Source: Aurantiochytrium sp. KH105
Taxonomy: Eukaryota > Sar > Bigyra > Thraustochytrida > Thraustochytriidae
NCBI GenBank assembly: GCA_003116975.1
Contig: BGKB01000047.1
Span: 310,001 to 374,000, forward strand
Length of the DNA: 64,000 nt
Direction of reading: 5' to 3'
The first letter of the stretch is position 1. Each line of letters opens with the position of its first letter. The notes under the pieces are model-generated. The model did no database searches, was not told the origin of the DNA, and worked only from the letters and a program-made list of their open reading frames with translations. Below are positions 44,476 through 52,003 of the stretch, one piece after another. The position numbers and the translations under genes are program-made.

Positions 44476-45523
44476 TTGATTTTCATCATTTCTGTACCCC
44501 CAATCTTGCATTTATCTCTCTCGATTCTGATGGTGCGCCCGTCACGTTCGATTCCTCGCTCTCCTGGTCAACCGGCTTGTTTGCTCATTTTGCTTTTAAA
44601 TGCCTACTACAGACCTACTTTACTTTCTTCTTCGATCATCCTCACACAGTCAAGGCTGGCATGGCAGCGAGCACGAGGGCAGCGTGCAGGAGGGCGCAGA
44701 AGGTATTTCTTTTGGTTGCTTCTCTCACACAGGATCACCTCTTCTCATCGTCAAGCCATCCACCCTTTCCATGCTTGCTGTTCACGCGAGCGAGCGAGCG
44801 AGCAATCGACAGCGACATGAAGGCCGCAGCCGTGCCGCTCCCACCTATCCTAGCACGCGTCGCTGTCGCAATCTGGCCAGTTTCAGTCTCCGTCCGTTGT
44901 GGTCCGAAAACAAGCCGCCCTGCAGTTTCGATCGCCTCCTCTTCACCTCGCTCCTAGCGGAGTCCAGGCCAGGCCAGGCCAGGCCAGGCCAGGCCAAGCC
45001 GGGCCGAGCGAGCGCCTGCCGGCCGGCGCCTCGCGCCTGCGTCTGCGCTGCGTCGGCCCGGCGTTCGTCGCCGCGGAGCCCCGGGGGGCGGGCAGGGCCT
45101 CGTTCGGCGCGCGCACACTCCGCTCCACTTGCGAGTTCACAGGTCCCGTCCAGCGGACCCAACCGGACGCAGACGGGATACTGCTGGCGCGGCCGGGAGC
45201 CCTGCGCAGGCAGCGCGGCGCGGCGGGGGCGCGGCGGCGGGACGCGGCGGCGCGGAGCTCGGAGGGCGCGCGCAGCAGCAGCAGCAGCAGCAGCCAGCGC
45301 GGCAGGAGCGCGCGCGCGCGATCGATTCTGGCGCGATTTGAGGAGGGCGGGGAGGCGCGGCGAGCTGGCACAGCACAGCACGCGGGCCGAGGAAGCCCGT
45401 GGGCAGGCGCGAGAAGGACGCGGGCGCGAGCGCGCAGGCGGCCGGGCGAGCTGGGAGACGTGCAAATCGCGCGGGGTTGGGGTTGGGGGCAGCCGCGCGT
45501 CCACGAGGAGAAAGGCGCGGACG

Positions 45524-48500
45524 ATGTCGATGGGGACGCTGTTCGAGATTATCGCGGAGGGCGACCTGCGAAGCCTGAAGCGTGCGATCGAGCATGATCC
45601 GAGCAAACTCAACCAGCAAACATCGCCGCTGACGCTGCTCATGTGGTCTGTGTATCCGCGCAGCGGAGGACATCCGAAAATAGCAAAGTGGCTCGTTGCA
45701 CAGGGCGCCAAGATGGACCTTCAAGAGATGGGGCACGGGAGGACAGCGCTGATGATTGCCTGCGGCTACGACCAGCCAGAGGCAGCCGAGATGCTCATCA
45801 AGAGCGGCGCAAATCTCGACATTCAAGCCACAACCGGGTACACGGCGCTCATGTTCGCTTGCCAAAACAAACAGCCTCGCCTCGCACGGATGATCATCAA
45901 ACGAGGCGCCGCCTTGGATCTTGCAAACACCGATGGCTGGACAGCGCTTATGACGGCTGCCTGCCACGGTGAGCCAGACACAGTCGGACTTCTTGCCGAC
46001 TACGGGGCCAGCTTGGACCTCCAGAACAAGACTGGCATGACCGCGCTTCTGGGCGCCATCGAGCACGGCAAGGAGGAAAATGCGTTGCTTCTCATCGAGC
46101 GCGGCGCAGCGGTCAACATTGTTAATCGGGATGGCTACAGCGCTCTCATGACCGCGTGCAGTCTGCAACTCCCACGTGTCGCGAGCGTGCTTCTCGATCG
46201 AGGCGCAGACCCTACGATTGTGGCCGAGTCCGGATGGACAGCGCTCATGCTCGCCGCCCGTCACGGCATGACAGACACTGTACAGCTCTTGATTCAGCGC
46301 GGCGCTCCAATTCATGTGCGCGACCCAGAGGGCTGGACGCCTTACCAGCTAGCGCGGCTCTGCGGCTCCAAGGAGACCATCGAGGTCCTCGTCAAGTTTG
46401 GCGCAGACTTAGCGTGCGCGCTTTCGCCGAGCCGGACTGCTCTTCTTCTCGCTTGCCGTAATGATGACCACGGGGCGGTCCGGCGTCTCCTCGCCGAAGG
46501 CGCAGACCCCAATACCGCAGATGAAAAGGACGTATCCTCGCTTATGGACGCCTGCCGCCACGGTCGCAAGGAGATCGCATTCCTTCTGATCCAGAGCGGC
46601 GCTGATATTAATGCGCGGGCACTCAATGGCTGGACAGCGCTCATGATGGCCTGCCGCAATAACCAGCCTGAGATCGCAAGACATCTCGTGGACCTGAATG
46701 CCTCTCTTGATGATCAAAGCAATGTCGGCTGGACCGCCCTTTCGCTCGCCTGTTGTTACCGTCTCCCAGAAATTGCGCGCCTGCTCATTGCAGCTGGCGC
46801 AAACCTCAATCTTCGCAAAACGGACGGGTGGTCCGCTCTCATGTATGCCTGCGGCTATGGGCAGCCCGAGACAGCTCGGGCTCTCATCCTTAATGGCGCG
46901 AATCTCGACTTTGAAGACACGCATGGCTCGACGGCGCTTGTTCTCGCTCGATTCAACAAAATGGACGAGATCGCCGACATGCTCATCAAACACGGAGCCT
47001 CTGACGAATTCGGTTCGCCCTATGCGAACAATGCTTCCGCTCAGGACTTCCCTGCAGGCTCGCACTCCCCCTCTCCCTCTGATCCACAAATGCACGAAGC
47101 AAGTGTTGTATTGTCGGAAGAGGCGTATTCGAAAAGAATCGATGGCCTGGAAATATCAAAGGCCCTTCTCGAGGCGTGCCGGAGCGATGAGGCGAAAAGA
47201 GCTCAGGATCTTATCGAAGCGGGCGCCGACCTCGATTTTCAAGACGCAGAGGGCTGGACGCCCCTCATATGCGCGGCCGTGAACGGAATGGACTCCATCG
47301 TCCACTTTCTCGTCGACTATGGTGCTGCTCTCGATCTGAAAAAAAGAAAAGACCAGTTTACAGCGCTCATGCATGCATGCAAAAGCGGGGATTTCGGAAT
47401 CGTGCAAATACTGGTGGAGCGAGGCGCGGACCTTGAGATCCAAAACTCGAATGGCGGAACAGCGCTCATCCTCGCTTGTCATTACGAGTTTCCGAATATC
47501 GCAAATTACCTCATTGAGCAGGGCGCCGACGTGACCGTTTGCGACAACCACAAACAAACTGCGCTTTTCTTTGCAGAGCGCAACAGTCTCTCCAAGACGA
47601 GTTCACTCCTCAAAAAATACGGGGCTGTCGAATCGTCGCACCATTCCCACTCGTCCGAAGACTTGCATGCAAGACCTCGGCCACATCAAGCGACTGCTCT
47701 CTTGAACGCCTGCCGCAACGGACGTGGTGATGATGCTCGAGCACTGATCGGCAGTGGATTTGAGATCGACACGCAAGATGTTCGAGGCTGGACCGCCGTC
47801 ATGCTCGCATGCAGTAATGGCCTTCCTGAGATCGCGGAACTTCTCATTGCAAAAGGCGCCAATGTGAACGCTCAAAAGCAAGACGGATGGACCGCTCTCA
47901 TGTTTGCCTGTCGACATAAGCAAGAACGAGTCGCTCAGCTCCTCATGGAAGGCGGCGCCGATATCAATATGCAGAATTGTAATGGGTGGACCGCACTAAT
48001 TGTCTCCTCGCGCTACAGAGTCACCGAGACAGCCCAGGAACTTATACTCCGAGGTGCTGACCTTGATAAAAAGGATACGAAGGGGCGGACTGCGCTCGTT
48101 TTTGCTTGTGTATACGCCGATGCAAAGCTCGTGCAAGCCTTATTGGCCGCTGGTGCTGCAGCTGACGTGCGCGACGAGAGAGACAGGTCTTTAATCTCCA
48201 TTGCCAAGGCTCTCGGGAAAAGGGATATTGTGCGACTACTTCAAAATGCAAAGACAGGTCTCGCGAAGATGAATCGCCATACAGCGCCCACAGAATGCGA
48301 AGAGGACCGTCTTGCACAAACGGATCATGACATTCTCTCCTATGAGCTCATTCGGGCATGCCGCGAAGGCCGCATGGCTGAGGCACGGGCGATAGTTCTG
48401 GAAGGCGCTCCCCTTGACGTATCTGACTCGTCAGGATGGACTCCTCTCATGTACGCGTGTCGGTGCGAGGACACAAGCCTAGCTGAATTGCTTGTCAAAC

Positions 48501-51500
48501 GCGGTGCCAAACTCGACTCACAAAACAGCGACGGGTGGTCAGCCCTCATGCTAGCGTGCAGGCTCGAGCGTCGCCACCTTGTCGACATACTTTTGTGTTA
48601 CGGAGCCAAGGTCGATCTGAGGGCGGATCAGGGCTGGACAGCTCTAATGCTCTCTTGCTTTGACCTCGACGTCGAGGTGCTGCCTGCGGATCAAACGGTG
48701 AATGTATCATGCGCGCAGTTATGTTGGACTGCCGGCGCCAGCCTTCACTGGTCCTCCGTTGATGGGCAAACTGCACTGGCGATCGCAAAGTCCACCTCAA
48801 ATCGCAAGGACGTTGAGATTTTTCTAGACTTTGTCGGCGAGTCTGACCTTGCGGCATATCTTCTCGACGACCAACAATTGCCTCGATCGACTGTGCTAAG
48901 CTTCTTTCAGAAGAACATTCTCACCTTTCAAGACGTCGCAAAACTCGATGAGAGTGCTCTTGTGTGTCTGGGCGTCAATAACAATGCTCAGGCCACGGAG
49001 ATACTCCGCGCGGCCGCAAAGCGGAGCCTTGCCGTCTCTTATCCTCTGGACCCTGCGCAGCAACATCAGACAATGATCGACATCCATCGCCTTGTCGCCG
49101 AGGTGGCTCGTGCGCGTGAAGAGGCACCCGAGGATTTGCATGGAGTTCTTCTGCACGAAAGAATTCGCCAAGCCCTCACGGATTTCGACGCATTCGCCGA
49201 TCCCTTTTCAAGCCTGACTGAGCTTGTCAAAAGAATGGATAATATTGATGTGCAAATGGCAGTCTTTGACGATCTCCAGGCAGAGGTGGCGCGCGACTCT
49301 TCTCGAAGCGCCGAAAGGGATCGAGCTCGCGAGGAGCTAGTGCAATTAATTTCGTCTGCATTCGAAGATGGCCAGGGTGAGCAGACTCTGACAAATTGGC
49401 AGACAGATGCAGGCATCCGTCGGATGCTGGAGGTTTGCGAGTCAGCATGGTGCGAGGCCGGCTTTGGTGAGATTCCCCTTTTGTCCTCTGACGCGTCCAT
49501 AGACTTTGCCGTCATGAAAACTGGAATTGAAGAAGTCCATGATTTGGAGCGAAGCTTCGTTTCTCACGCCAATCTGATCAAATCCAGATACCTTCAGACG
49601 TGCGATGCTTTACGTGCCCTCAGTAAGCGATCCGAGGAGCTCGTGCCCGATCGGAGCACTCTGTTTTTTTCCATCGAGCATCCCGAAGTGACTTACAAGT
49701 TGACCGAGGAGATCAAGCAGGTGGAAAACGCCTTGCTTGAAGAGCTCAATGCTCTTCGCGCGGAATTACCGTCCATGAGAAGGCTCGTTTTTGCAAGTCA
49801 AAACTTTCTCATGAGCGCAATTATTTACTTCCGCAACACGTTGCCTGAGGAGCTTGGCGATCTTGTGAACAGGATTAAAAGCGTCAAGGCTCTCAAAGCC
49901 TATCTGGAGCAAGGCAGCAAGCCACCCGATACAAGACCCATTGTGGTCTTGCGCAAAGAGCTCTTTGACCTCAGAAGGAGCAGAGCTCACGCCGTCCAAG
50001 AGCTCGAATACGCCAGGGAGGCGCGCGAAGCATTATGTGCAGAAAATGACGAGGAGATTGCTCAACTGGAAGAGCAGGTATCAGCCATCAATTTATACGA
50101 TACTTGCCGTGACGTGTGTCGGCAGCGCGCGGACATCCTTGCTCATGCAGAGCAACACCATCCGGAGCTTTTGCACGACTCTGCATGGCTTCGCACTCTT
50201 GGTATTGTGGACGTGGAGCAGGTCGAAATTAGCAAGCTTGGACTTTGGTGGGATGGTGTCTCCCTGCAAGACTTCACCATCGTCAGTCGTCTCAGTTCGA
50301 CTCCCGGCAAGGAGGTACTTCACGTGTGTGACCTGGATGGCCAAGATTTGGTACTCCGGGAATTTCACCTCATTGAAGCCGGTCGAAGTAAACACTTCTT
50401 CGCTCACGTGACGACGCTCGCCAAGATTCAATCGCCGCACCTTGTTCACGTGGAGGCCATTTTCATGAAGTCTCCCCAAACCGGATACTTGGTCTCTCCT
50501 CTTTACACGGGTGGGGATCTCGCGTCATTCATTCGCAATGATACAAAAACAAATGTCAAGGAGCGCCGATTTATTGCTGTCGGTATCCTCGAGGGTCTCT
50601 GCGACCTGCATGATTGTGGCTTTGTGCATTTCTTCCTCGAGCCTAAAAATGTCTTTTTGACCTCCACGCTCGAACCAGTGCTTCAACCCTTTGACGGCGA
50701 GCTCTCGTCTGAAAAAAGCATGTCCAACCTCATGCAAAGGTGCGACTCGTATCTCGCGCCTGAGACTCACGAAGGCAGGCATGAAGCCGTCAACACTTCG
50801 GTGGACGTTTTTGCTGCTGGGGTCATTTTCAAGGAGCTCTTTCCCCACTGCTCAAGTGCCATGTGCGAATTGATCGCGGCCATGTGTTCGGCAGACCCTG
50901 AAGCTCGCCCCACGGCTCGGGAAGCTCTACATCACGTTGCGCTGGCGCCGACGCTTGACGAAAGTTCTGACACTTTCCATGATCGTGATAATGATGACGA
51001 TATCGAGAACGAGAACGAGAACGAGAACGAGAATGATGATGATGATTATGAGCAGGAGGAGGAGGAGAGAGAGGAATCTCACCCTACTGTCCTCAGTCTG
51101 ATGGAAGCCGCACGAAATAGTCCATCGATCACAAATCGCACAGAGCAACTTTCTCAATCGCCGGAGACTTCGGCATTGGTCACGGGATCGCTCGAGTTTA
51201 TCTCTGCAATTTCTGCTGGCACGGCGTCTTCCAATCTCGGATCTTCCCAAGGCCCACTGAAACCTAGTCCGTCTTCATCTTCTGGTTTCATGGAGGACCA
51301 GGGAGTCTCCACTCGATCATCGTCTAACACGGTCCAGCACAAGGTTACGGAAAGCGATGAATGTGCCTCGGACGCGACGGAAGGGCCAGCAGTTAACTCC
51401 GCACGAGGTGTGATTGCTTCTTGGGAAATGGGATCCTCATCAATGGGAAGAGCAAGAACAGAGAACGAGTCGTGGGGCCGCAATGCGCCGAGTTCTCCGA

Positions 51501-52003
51501 GTCCCACCGGGTTTTCGTACCCAGAAAGCCCAATTTCGACGCATTCGCGAAAACTCTCGGACGGCTTCGCAAGTGATTTCGGAGAGTGTTTTTTGGACTC
51601 ATCGAGCCACGTGAAGATGATTCAAGACTACATTCTGTGCACGTGCTGTCCGGCATGTACGACGGCATTTTTCGACTTTGACGGATGTTGCGCAATCAAG
51701 TGCAGCAACCCCAACTGTTCTTATTTTTGTTGCGCGTGGTGTTTGACGTCTTGTTCGACGGATGCAAACGAGTGTCAGATGCACGTGCAGAAGTGTCCGG
51801 AAAAGCCTCCTGGTGAAGATGGACTCTTTGCGGACCTCCATGTCGTTCACGAGGCTTGGGCAAAGCTGCGCTCCAAGCGCGTGAATGCGTATTTGCGGTA
51901 CCAAATCTCGAACGAAGCCATGCGGGCAATTGTTCGCAGCGAGATTGAGCCGTATTTGACTCACGACATTTACGAGTCAACGTCGAGTCCGGGTTTCACC
52001 TAA
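45524..52003 (+). CDS. Giant ankyrin-SAM-pseudokinase protein with C-terminal Rcat-like zinc module
   Basis: The 2159-residue protein starts at ATG 45524. It begins with about 29 ankyrin repeats in four blocks (to about 1085) with consensus DGWTALMxAC-x(4)-PExAxxLIxxGA-x-LDxQ. A SAM domain follows (about 1112-1168, VLSFFQKNILTFQDVAKLDE), then a helical/coiled-coil region (VQELEYAREAREAL). A kinase-like domain (about 1570-1813) lacks catalytic residues: the VAIK Lys is R1612, the HxD Asp is F1704, and the DFG position reads PFD at 1722-1724. An acidic stretch and a Ser-rich linker lead to a Cys-rich end at 2039-2091. Its Cys spacing C2042-x2-C2045-x9-C2055-x4-C2060-x4-C2065-x4-C2070-x2-C2073 copies parkin RING2, with C2055 at the catalytic position. 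A scaffold or ubiquitin role is inferred. The frame is open upstream but this ATG directly precedes the first repeat. Confidence 0.85.
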   Translation: MSMGTLFEIIAEGDLRSLKRAIEHDPSKLNQQTSPLTLLMWSVYPRSGGHPKIAKWLVAQGAKMDLQEMGHGRTALMIACGYDQPEAAEMLIKSGANLDIQATTGYTALMFACQNKQPRLARMIIKRGAALDLANTDGWTALMTAACHGEPDTVGLLADYGASLDLQNKTGMTALLGAIEHGKEENALLLIERGAAVNIVNRDGYSALMTACSLQLPRVASVLLDRGADPTIVAESGWTALMLAARHGMTDTVQLLIQRGAPIHVRDPEGWTPYQLARLCGSKETIEVLVKFGADLACALSPSRTALLLACRNDDHGAVRRLLAEGADPNTADEKDVSSLMDACRHGRKEIAFLLIQSGADINARALNGWTALMMACRNNQPEIARHLVDLNASLDDQSNVGWTALSLACCYRLPEIARLLIAAGANLNLRKTDGWSALMYACGYGQPETARALILNGANLDFEDTHGSTALVLARFNKMDEIADMLIKHGASDEFGSPYANNASAQDFPAGSHSPSPSDPQMHEASVVLSEEAYSKRIDGLEISKALLEACRSDEAKRAQDLIEAGADLDFQDAEGWTPLICAAVNGMDSIVHFLVDYGAALDLKKRKDQFTALMHACKSGDFGIVQILVERGADLEIQNSNGGTALILACHYEFPNIANYLIEQGADVTVCDNHKQTALFFAERNSLSKTSSLLKKYGAVESSHHSHSSEDLHARPRPHQATALLNACRNGRGDDARALIGSGFEIDTQDVRGWTAVMLACSNGLPEIAELLIAKGANVNAQKQDGWTALMFACRHKQERVAQLLMEGGADINMQNCNGWTALIVSSRYRVTETAQELILRGADLDKKDTKGRTALVFACVYADAKLVQALLAAGAAADVRDERDRSLISIAKALGKRDIVRLLQNAKTGLAKMNRHTAPTECEEDRLAQTDHDILSYELIRACREGRMAEARAIVLEGAPLDVSDSSGWTPLMYACRCEDTSLAELLVKRGAKLDSQNSDGWSALMLACRLERRHLVDILLCYGAKVDLRADQGWTALMLSCFDLDVEVLPADQTVNVSCAQLCWTAGASLHWSSVDGQTALAIAKSTSNRKDVEIFLDFVGESDLAAYLLDDQQLPRSTVLSFFQKNILTFQDVAKLDESALVCLGVNNNAQATEILRAAAKRSLAVSYPLDPAQQHQTMIDIHRLVAEVARAREEAPEDLHGVLLHERIRQALTDFDAFADPFSSLTELVKRMDNIDVQMAVFDDLQAEVARDSSRSAERDRAREELVQLISSAFEDGQGEQTLTNWQTDAGIRRMLEVCESAWCEAGFGEIPLLSSDASIDFAVMKTGIEEVHDLERSFVSHANLIKSRYLQTCDALRALSKRSEELVPDRSTLFFSIEHPEVTYKLTEEIKQVENALLEELNALRAELPSMRRLVFASQNFLMSAIIYFRNTLPEELGDLVNRIKSVKALKAYLEQGSKPPDTRPIVVLRKELFDLRRSRAHAVQELEYAREAREALCAENDEEIAQLEEQVSAINLYDTCRDVCRQRADILAHAEQHHPELLHDSAWLRTLGIVDVEQVEISKLGLWWDGVSLQDFTIVSRLSSTPGKEVLHVCDLDGQDLVLREFHLIEAGRSKHFFAHVTTLAKIQSPHLVHVEAIFMKSPQTGYLVSPLYTGGDLASFIRNDTKTNVKERRFIAVGILEGLCDLHDCGFVHFFLEPKNVFLTSTLEPVLQPFDGELSSEKSMSNLMQRCDSYLAPETHEGRHEAVNTSVDVFAAGVIFKELFPHCSSAMCELIAAMCSADPEARPTAREALHHVALAPTLDESSDTFHDRDNDDDIENENENENENDDDDYEQEEEEREESHPTVLSLMEAARNSPSITNRTEQLSQSPETSALVTGSLEFISAISAGTASSNLGSSQGPLKPSPSSSSGFMEDQGVSTRSSSNTVQHKVTESDECASDATEGPAVNSARGVIASWEMGSSSMGRARTENESWGRNAPSSPSPTGFSYPESPISTHSRKLSDGFASDFGECFLDSSSHVKMIQDYILCTCCPACTTAFFDFDGCCAIKCSNPNCSYFCCAWCLTSCSTDANECQMHVQKCPEKPPGEDGLFADLHVVHEAWAKLRSKRVNAYLRYQISNEAMRAIVRSEIEPYLTHDIYESTSSPGFT

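Follow-up and report, generated by a model that had tools for sequence, protein, structure and literature searches.

The window analysed here is a stretch of 64,000 nucleotides from Aurantiochytrium sp. KH105 (contig BGKB01000047.1, referred to as C47, positions 310,001 to 374,000), and it contains a gene (45524..52003, forward strand) that encodes a protein of 2159 amino acids, followed by a stop codon, in a single open reading frame (ORF). The analysis has confirmed that this one frame joins an ankyrin array, a SAM-like segment, a helical region, a pseudokinase and a zinc module, in that order. Judged by sequence comparison, the gene is not an isolated oddity; it is a divergent member, with one locus per haplotype, of an expanded family in the same genome. 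A typical member of this family carries the catalytic kinase residues and a RING1 domain; the window gene is without both, its ankyrin array is long, and neither haplotype interrupts its frame. At roughly even chances, we infer that its product, a pseudoenzyme, acts as a scaffold or regulator and assembles together with catalytic paralogs. All features given below by window position lie on the forward strand.

A stop-free stretch extends from position 44600 to the stop at 52003 (2467 codons when counted from its first ATG), and translation from the ATG at 45524 gives the protein of 2159 residues. When the organism's own genome was searched (76.0 Mb in 367 contigs), a second full-length copy with 95% identity was found at C33:491775-498161; it is collinear with the window gene and keeps the frame. 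One gene was tested on each side of the window gene, and each has exactly one further match on C33 (96% and 97%), so that C33 is most likely the homologous haplotype of the window locus. In this second haplotype the ORF starts 78 codons ahead of the common MSMGTLFE start and the window's upstream extension is not present; 45524 is therefore preferred as the likely start codon of the window gene. The preliminary description, a model's reading of the letters alone, had claimed that one uninterrupted frame joins all the modules, and the ORF is indeed open in both haplotypes. A chance ORF is ruled out by the length of 2467 codons, the homology to paralogs and the collinear second haplotype. The fusion of separate genes by mis-reading is likewise ruled out; one paralog, L026, also has its ankyrin part and the rest in a single frame, of 1371 codons, like the window gene. 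The two apparent haplotypes at this locus are ~8% apart at synonymous sites, and gene counts in the assembly may be doubled.

The pseudokinase domain (50219..50983), delimited by Pfam, paralog comparison and a structure model, matches Pfam Pkinase with an expect value (E) of 1.7e-18. The modelled domain also matches kinases in the PDB, the best being the pseudokinase of Jak1 (E 1.1e-10), and thus has a kinase fold. The residues expected of a catalytic kinase are replaced at all three sites, in the window copy and in the C33 copy alike. The position of the beta-3 Lys is Arg1612 (50357..50359; Lys in 37/37 paralogs), that of the HxD Asp is Phe1704 (50633..50635; Asp in 32/37 and Asn in 5/37) and that of the DFG Asp is Pro1722 (50687..50689; Asp in 37/37). 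The kinase fold without catalytic residues that had been proposed earlier is thereby upheld. Among the 37 sampled paralog kinase segments, which are those spanning at least 90% of the query segment, 32 have all three residues. Gln stands at the alpha-C Glu position and Asp at the DFG Gly position in every one of the 37, so kinase activity of the paralogs is plausible, not certain. The five members in which Asn replaces the HxD Asp (L025, L033, L038, L039 and L048) indicate that loss of a kinase residue occurs within the family as well.

Where the paralogs have RING1, the window protein has an acidic/Ser-rich low-complexity linker (50984..51637), recognised by an alignment gap, its Cys count and haplotype indels. 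Alignment to the paralog core jumps over core residues 800-901, which contain RING1, and there is a single Cys among window residues 1821-2020. Neither this alignment nor RING1 searches of the genome gave a RING1 match in the window protein. Since RING1 is replaced by the low-complexity linker, the protein is without the part that would bind a ubiquitin-charged conjugating enzyme (E2~ubiquitin).

The linker is followed by an Rcat-like zinc module (residues 2042-2091; 51647..51796), recognised by its Cys/His spacing and by homology to the last finger of the paralogs (46% identity with the best of these, E 8.5e-36). Spacing points to C2042, C2045, C2060, C2065, C2070, C2073, H2087 and C2091 as candidate zinc ligands. 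The spacing C-x2-C-x9-C-x4-C-x2..5-C-x4-C-x2-C-x8..13-H-x3-C is found in the window protein and in 28 of 30 aligned rows; the other two, L059 and L060, differ in the first pair, which is C-x4-H and not C-x2-C. The third Cys of the finger is the candidate catalytic one. In the window protein this is Cys2055 (51686..51688), which by alignment with RNF216 is in the register of the Rcat catalytic cysteine and is Cys in 23/23 aligned rows. No Pfam family matched the window zinc module, and no IBR was found in the window protein. The Rcat/RING2-like module of the preliminary description is retained, as Rcat-like, for its spacing and homology. A C-terminal tail (51797..52000), mostly common to the paralogs by alignment, completes the protein.

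At least 19 other loci in the genome align at 31-41% identity over parts of residues 1061-1810, in the helical region and kinase, and 17 of these are also 40-47% identical over the last finger, in collinear order; they come from 22 scored of 1158 candidates. In the typical paralog core of ~1050 amino acids, the last ankyrin repeats and a SAM-like segment come first, a helical region and a kinase follow, and RING1, a helical linker and an Rcat-like finger stand at the end, in that order. The last finger alone has 109 matches in the genome, fragments included (113 candidates, all scored). At 62 of these 109 places the same strand carries helical region, kinase and RING1 upstream of the finger; the finger match is at least 300 bases long at 60 of them and shorter at the other two. 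The count draws on a selection of matches, for the most part strong ones: 83 of 151 for the kinase (where 150 of 488 candidates were scored), 85 of 108 for RING1 and 72 of 97 for the helical region. It depends on that selection and is probably a lower bound. The haploid size of the family may be about half of the count, because both haplotypes are assembled, at least at the window locus. Conserved co-occurrence of the modules, which had been named as the test of the fusion, is thus apparent among paralogs of the same genome.

The window and C33 copies have the helical region, kinase and finger, and RING1 alone is missing. RING1 is also missing from the count at three other places that have helical region and kinase. 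Two of them are on C303, with stops in their kinase and helical matches and a weak partial RING1 match that falls outside the count; the third has a short finger match. The remaining finger places are partial, and at five kinase places no finger follows downstream. RING1 occurs in the paralogs as well as in L059 and L060, and catalytic residues are ancestral to kinases; the simpler reading is therefore that RING1 and the kinase residues were probably both lost in the window lineage. In the tree the window pair sits on a long branch, and midpoint rooting means that no date can be given for the split of the pair.

Several members differ in the parts that accompany the C-terminal unit. Helical region, RING1 and Rcat-like finger occur together with no kinase match at C44:16015, C122:202558 and C348:19760 (L040), in ORFs of 989, 985 and 912 amino acids, and the kinase module thus appears to be removable. 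In L059 (C184:82900-85900) the RING1-Rcat unit stands behind a PDZ-like match (E 1.6e-4, just under Pfam's cut-off), and in L060 (C44:575100-578100) it stands behind helical sequence with no kinase match; no kinase was found in the stretches fetched around either locus. Several paralogs have one ORF for the ankyrin part and a second for everything after it, joined over a short GT..AG gap. With a simple splice finder, run on 19 loci, no junction was recovered at L013 and L026, and at other loci the acceptor was doubtful or the first exon very short.

In the paralogs, the eight-ligand pattern of RING1 is invariant in 30/30 aligned rows (28 of 38 paralog segments together with L059 and L060), and the region from RING1 to the end has weak RING-type Pfam matches. 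Between the two fingers there are helices without conserved Cys, and IBR_1 matches one of the 30 rows (E 0.021). An AlphaFold2 model of the RING1-linker-finger part of L016 (mean predicted local distance difference test score, pLDDT, 80.5; predicted template modelling score, pTM, 0.55) was used in a fold search. The RBR unit of RNF216 came first (E 4e-4) and was the sole PDB match below 0.001, followed by ARIH2, HOIL-1, HHARI and parkin at E 0.016-0.1. A sequence profile also matches RING1 of RNF216 (E 4e-5). The candidate catalytic position is Ala in the RNF216 chain of a transthiolation complex and Cys in another RNF216 chain, which would fit the third Cys being the catalytic one. RNF216 (TRIAD3), the nearest RBR ligase and the best structural match, is thus like the paralogs in RING1 and in the Rcat spacing and Cys of the second finger. 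However, the paralogs differ from RBR ligases in having no IBR/BRcat between the fingers, a kinase in front and no triad His, and in the window protein RING1 is missing as well. By domain content, then, the window protein is not an RBR ligase, with neither RING1 nor IBR, and the paralogs fall outside the definition at the IBR. Binding of E2 by paralog RING1 and transfer of ubiquitin by the family are putative.

Fold matches to RBR-like proteins of giant viruses exist as well. Twelve viral models were matched at E up to 0.001, five of which are named RNF216, triad3 or RBR-type; the best is an uncharacterised protein of Pyramimonas orientalis virus (BFVD A0A7M3UPC4; E 2.3e-9, 23% identity over 249 columns, TM-score 0.37). 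The profiles A1 (the 30-row alignment from RING1 to the end) and A2 found no relatives in the viral contig set, and A1 found none in the other genome contig set.

The ankyrin region of the window protein (45671..48658), recognised by Pfam (Ank_2, E 1.7e-159) and by a profile made from the protein's own repeats, contains 28 detected repeats, partly non-contiguous. They are tandem repeats of 33 residues, as in the ankyrin-repeat class, and the number is close to the approximately 29 first estimated. Nine paralogs with a recovered putative first exon have 6-13 repeats, a comparison in which the profile was made from window repeats, favouring the window protein, and at least one paralog first exon is incomplete in the stretch analysed. 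The mean pairwise identity of repeats within one protein is 0.35-0.63 in the nine paralogs and 0.36 in the window protein. The arrays were considered as possible hypervariable sensors.

The SAM-like segment (48800..49042) was recognised by alignment with 19 paralog rows and by the SAM matches of that alignment. SAM_2 is matched by 16 of the 20 rows (E up to 1, best 2.8e-4), the window row not necessarily among them, and in a profile search of the PDB the top ten matches were all SAM-domain chains (best E 0.007). Some of these chains bear SAM in their molecule names; ARAP and aveugle are further SAM-domain proteins among them. The SAM domain first proposed is suggested by the family alignment, but the window segment alone has no Pfam match. 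The helical region that follows (49043..50218) is common to the paralogs by sequence matches and a structure model; the model of the window protein (mean pLDDT 75.4) predicts long helices at about residues 1166-1565, in keeping with the coiled coil suggested at the outset.

The window and C33 copies differ by 114 synonymous and 121 non-synonymous changes, which gives a ratio of non-synonymous to synonymous rates (dN/dS) of 0.31. By region, dN/dS is 0.23 for the ankyrin array, 0.07 for the SAM-like segment, 0.37 for the helical region, 0.70 for the pseudokinase, 0.46 for the linker, 0.22 for the zinc module and 0.27 for the tail. The difference between the pseudokinase and the rest has a Fisher p of 0.016 or 0.043, depending on the rounding of half counts and uncorrected over seven regions. 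The sole indels between haplotypes, of 17 and 13 codons, are both in the linker and both in frame. Among paralog pairs, formed from 29 segments each, the median dN/dS is 0.163 in the kinase (dS was 0.05-1 in 227 of 406 pairs) and 0.202 in RING1-Rcat (368 of 406), a rough comparison because most of these pairs are likely to be older than the haplotype split.

If the window protein is a scaffold or regulator, its ankyrin array would bind a partner through a private surface, and oligomers, of the protein alone or together with catalytic paralogs, would form through the SAM-like and helical regions. The pseudokinase and the lone Rcat-like finger might then act as docking or autoinhibitory surfaces, and the protein might nucleate, gate or dampen kinase/ubiquitin signalling by the paralogs. 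In the paralogs themselves, ankyrin sensing would probably be followed by clustering through SAM and coil, then by kinase switching, and finally by passage of ubiquitin from an E2 on RING1 through the Rcat-like cysteine. A self-contained scaffold for ubiquitin transfer had been envisaged at the outset; the one frame, the pseudokinase and the Rcat/RING2-like module stand, but self-contained transfer does not, as there is a linker in place of RING1.

Several observations weigh against the interpretation as a scaffold or regulator beside catalytic paralogs. The residue two after the candidate Cys is Ala in 23/23 rows and His in classical RBR ligases; RNF216 has Arg there in the alignment, and a His at this position is therefore not universal. 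When the last-finger profile was compared with the PDB, the RING of RNF4 came first (E 5.4e-7 for a two-copy chain, 0.0013 for a one-copy chain), ahead of Cullin-9 (0.009) and then ARIH2 and HOIP. Because of these two results the finger is named Rcat-like and not Rcat. TM-scores of the fold matches to the RING1-linker-finger model are low (~0.3), and the profile match to RNF216 covers RING1 only, the second finger scoring below zero. Assignment of the SAM-like segment is weak, with 18% identity between the window and L016 rows and low confidence of the structure model in this segment. The regional dN/dS values derive from few changes, with at most five each in the SAM-like segment (4 synonymous, 1 non-synonymous), the zinc module (2.5 and 2.5) and the tail. 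Fast evolution of the pseudokinase also fits decay of this domain.

A bolder version of the same idea, which we put forward tentatively and at distinctly less than even chances, concerns the whole family. The paralogs would be single-chain receptors, numerous in this genome, in which ankyrin sensing and clustering by SAM and coil are linked to a kinase and to an IBR-less RING1-Rcat transthiolation ligase. The window protein would be a conserved dead member that gates or nucleates the active ones. By analogy, such a receptor might be likened to PINK1 plus parkin, or to an IRAK-plus-ligase signalosome, in one molecule.

Alternatively, the window finger might still be chemically active and take over ubiquitin from an E2 bound to RING1 of a paralog within one oligomer; the protein would then serve as a substrate-specific transfer subunit of a split ligase. 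The candidate catalytic Cys and all candidate ligand positions are present in both haplotypes, and the zinc module has a dN/dS of 0.22, although with few changes. However, the protein has no RING1 of its own, and it has Ala in place of the His that belongs to the Cys-His-Glu/Gln triad of parkin, HHARI and HOIP (PMC3940038). No precedent for a RING1-less Rcat protein was found in the accessible portions of the RBR literature, and we regard a split ligase as unlikely. It is also improbable that the protein is a structural scaffold independent of ubiquitin, with its function in the ankyrin and helical parts and a C-terminal half that is no more than a relic of the fold. The dN/dS values, lowest in the SAM-like part and highest in the pseudokinase, would agree with such a scaffold, but the zinc ligands and candidate Cys are conserved relative to paralogs whose overall identity across the module is 40-52%. 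Decay of the gene, on its way out like the family's many fragments, some of them with stops, would fit the fast pseudokinase and the LALE of the C33 haplotype for LAPE in the window, but is very unlikely given more than 2100 codons open in both haplotypes, in-frame indels and a dN/dS of 0.31.

ANKIB1, a human ankyrin-repeat RBR ligase, is not known to have a kinase or a SAM domain. Like the family described here it combines ankyrin repeats and an RBR unit in one chain, but it has two ankyrin repeats and an Ariadne domain (PMC3940038). KEG of Arabidopsis likewise unites a ubiquitin ligase, a kinase and ankyrin repeats; its order is RING, kinase, ankyrin, HERC2-like, and no SAM or Rcat is mentioned in the accessible part of PMC11020294. 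The oomycete ankyrin-kinases also place an ankyrin array before the kinase, as in PITG_06288 with 15 repeats N-terminal to a TKL kinase, but the accessory-domain table in the available text of PMC3019232 has no RING-type domain; the same text gives TKL as the kinase family with most inactive members. For an inactive kinase beside an active paralog in a signalling complex, IRAK2-type regulators offer a parallel, and the IRAK2 pseudokinase is still able to induce oligomerisation and activation of TRAF6 (PMC7132539). No homology between IRAK2 and the window protein is claimed beyond the kinase fold. The open-licence literature in PubMed Central yielded no description of a kinase and an RBR-like unit in one chain, and no report of ankyrin/kinase expansions in thraustochytrids. 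The novelty lies in the family, where one chain unites a kinase with a RING1-Rcat-like unit that has no IBR.

The window gene is flanked by a DNA polymerase epsilon gene and by a gene with a metallo-beta-lactamase fold, the latter presumably RNase Z-like. The nearer contig end is ~72 kb away on C47 and ~62 kb away for the C33 copy. Of 41 paralog loci with known contig size, the 28 on contigs of at least 100 kb were tested for proximity to contig ends (13 on smaller contigs were excluded); 18 lie within 30 kb of an end, where 6.5 are expected, and none of 20000 simulations reached 18. This enrichment may also result from assembly breaks at repeats. Fragments of the family are numerous, some contain stops, and several often share a strand of one contig (C57, C128, C44, C303), which, with the contig-end enrichment, suggests birth-and-death evolution.

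Activity of the paralogs would mean that one chain holds both a kinase and a cysteine-relay ubiquitin ligase. Control of an RBR-like ligase by phosphorylation could then be tested within one protein, and an RBR-like ligase would be working without an IBR domain. The window gene would then, if this is true, be a natural null, with the same scaffold, the kinase residues changed and RING1 gone. In its size, contig-end enrichment and many fragments, the family resembles receptor families that evolve by birth and death, here in a microbial eukaryote.

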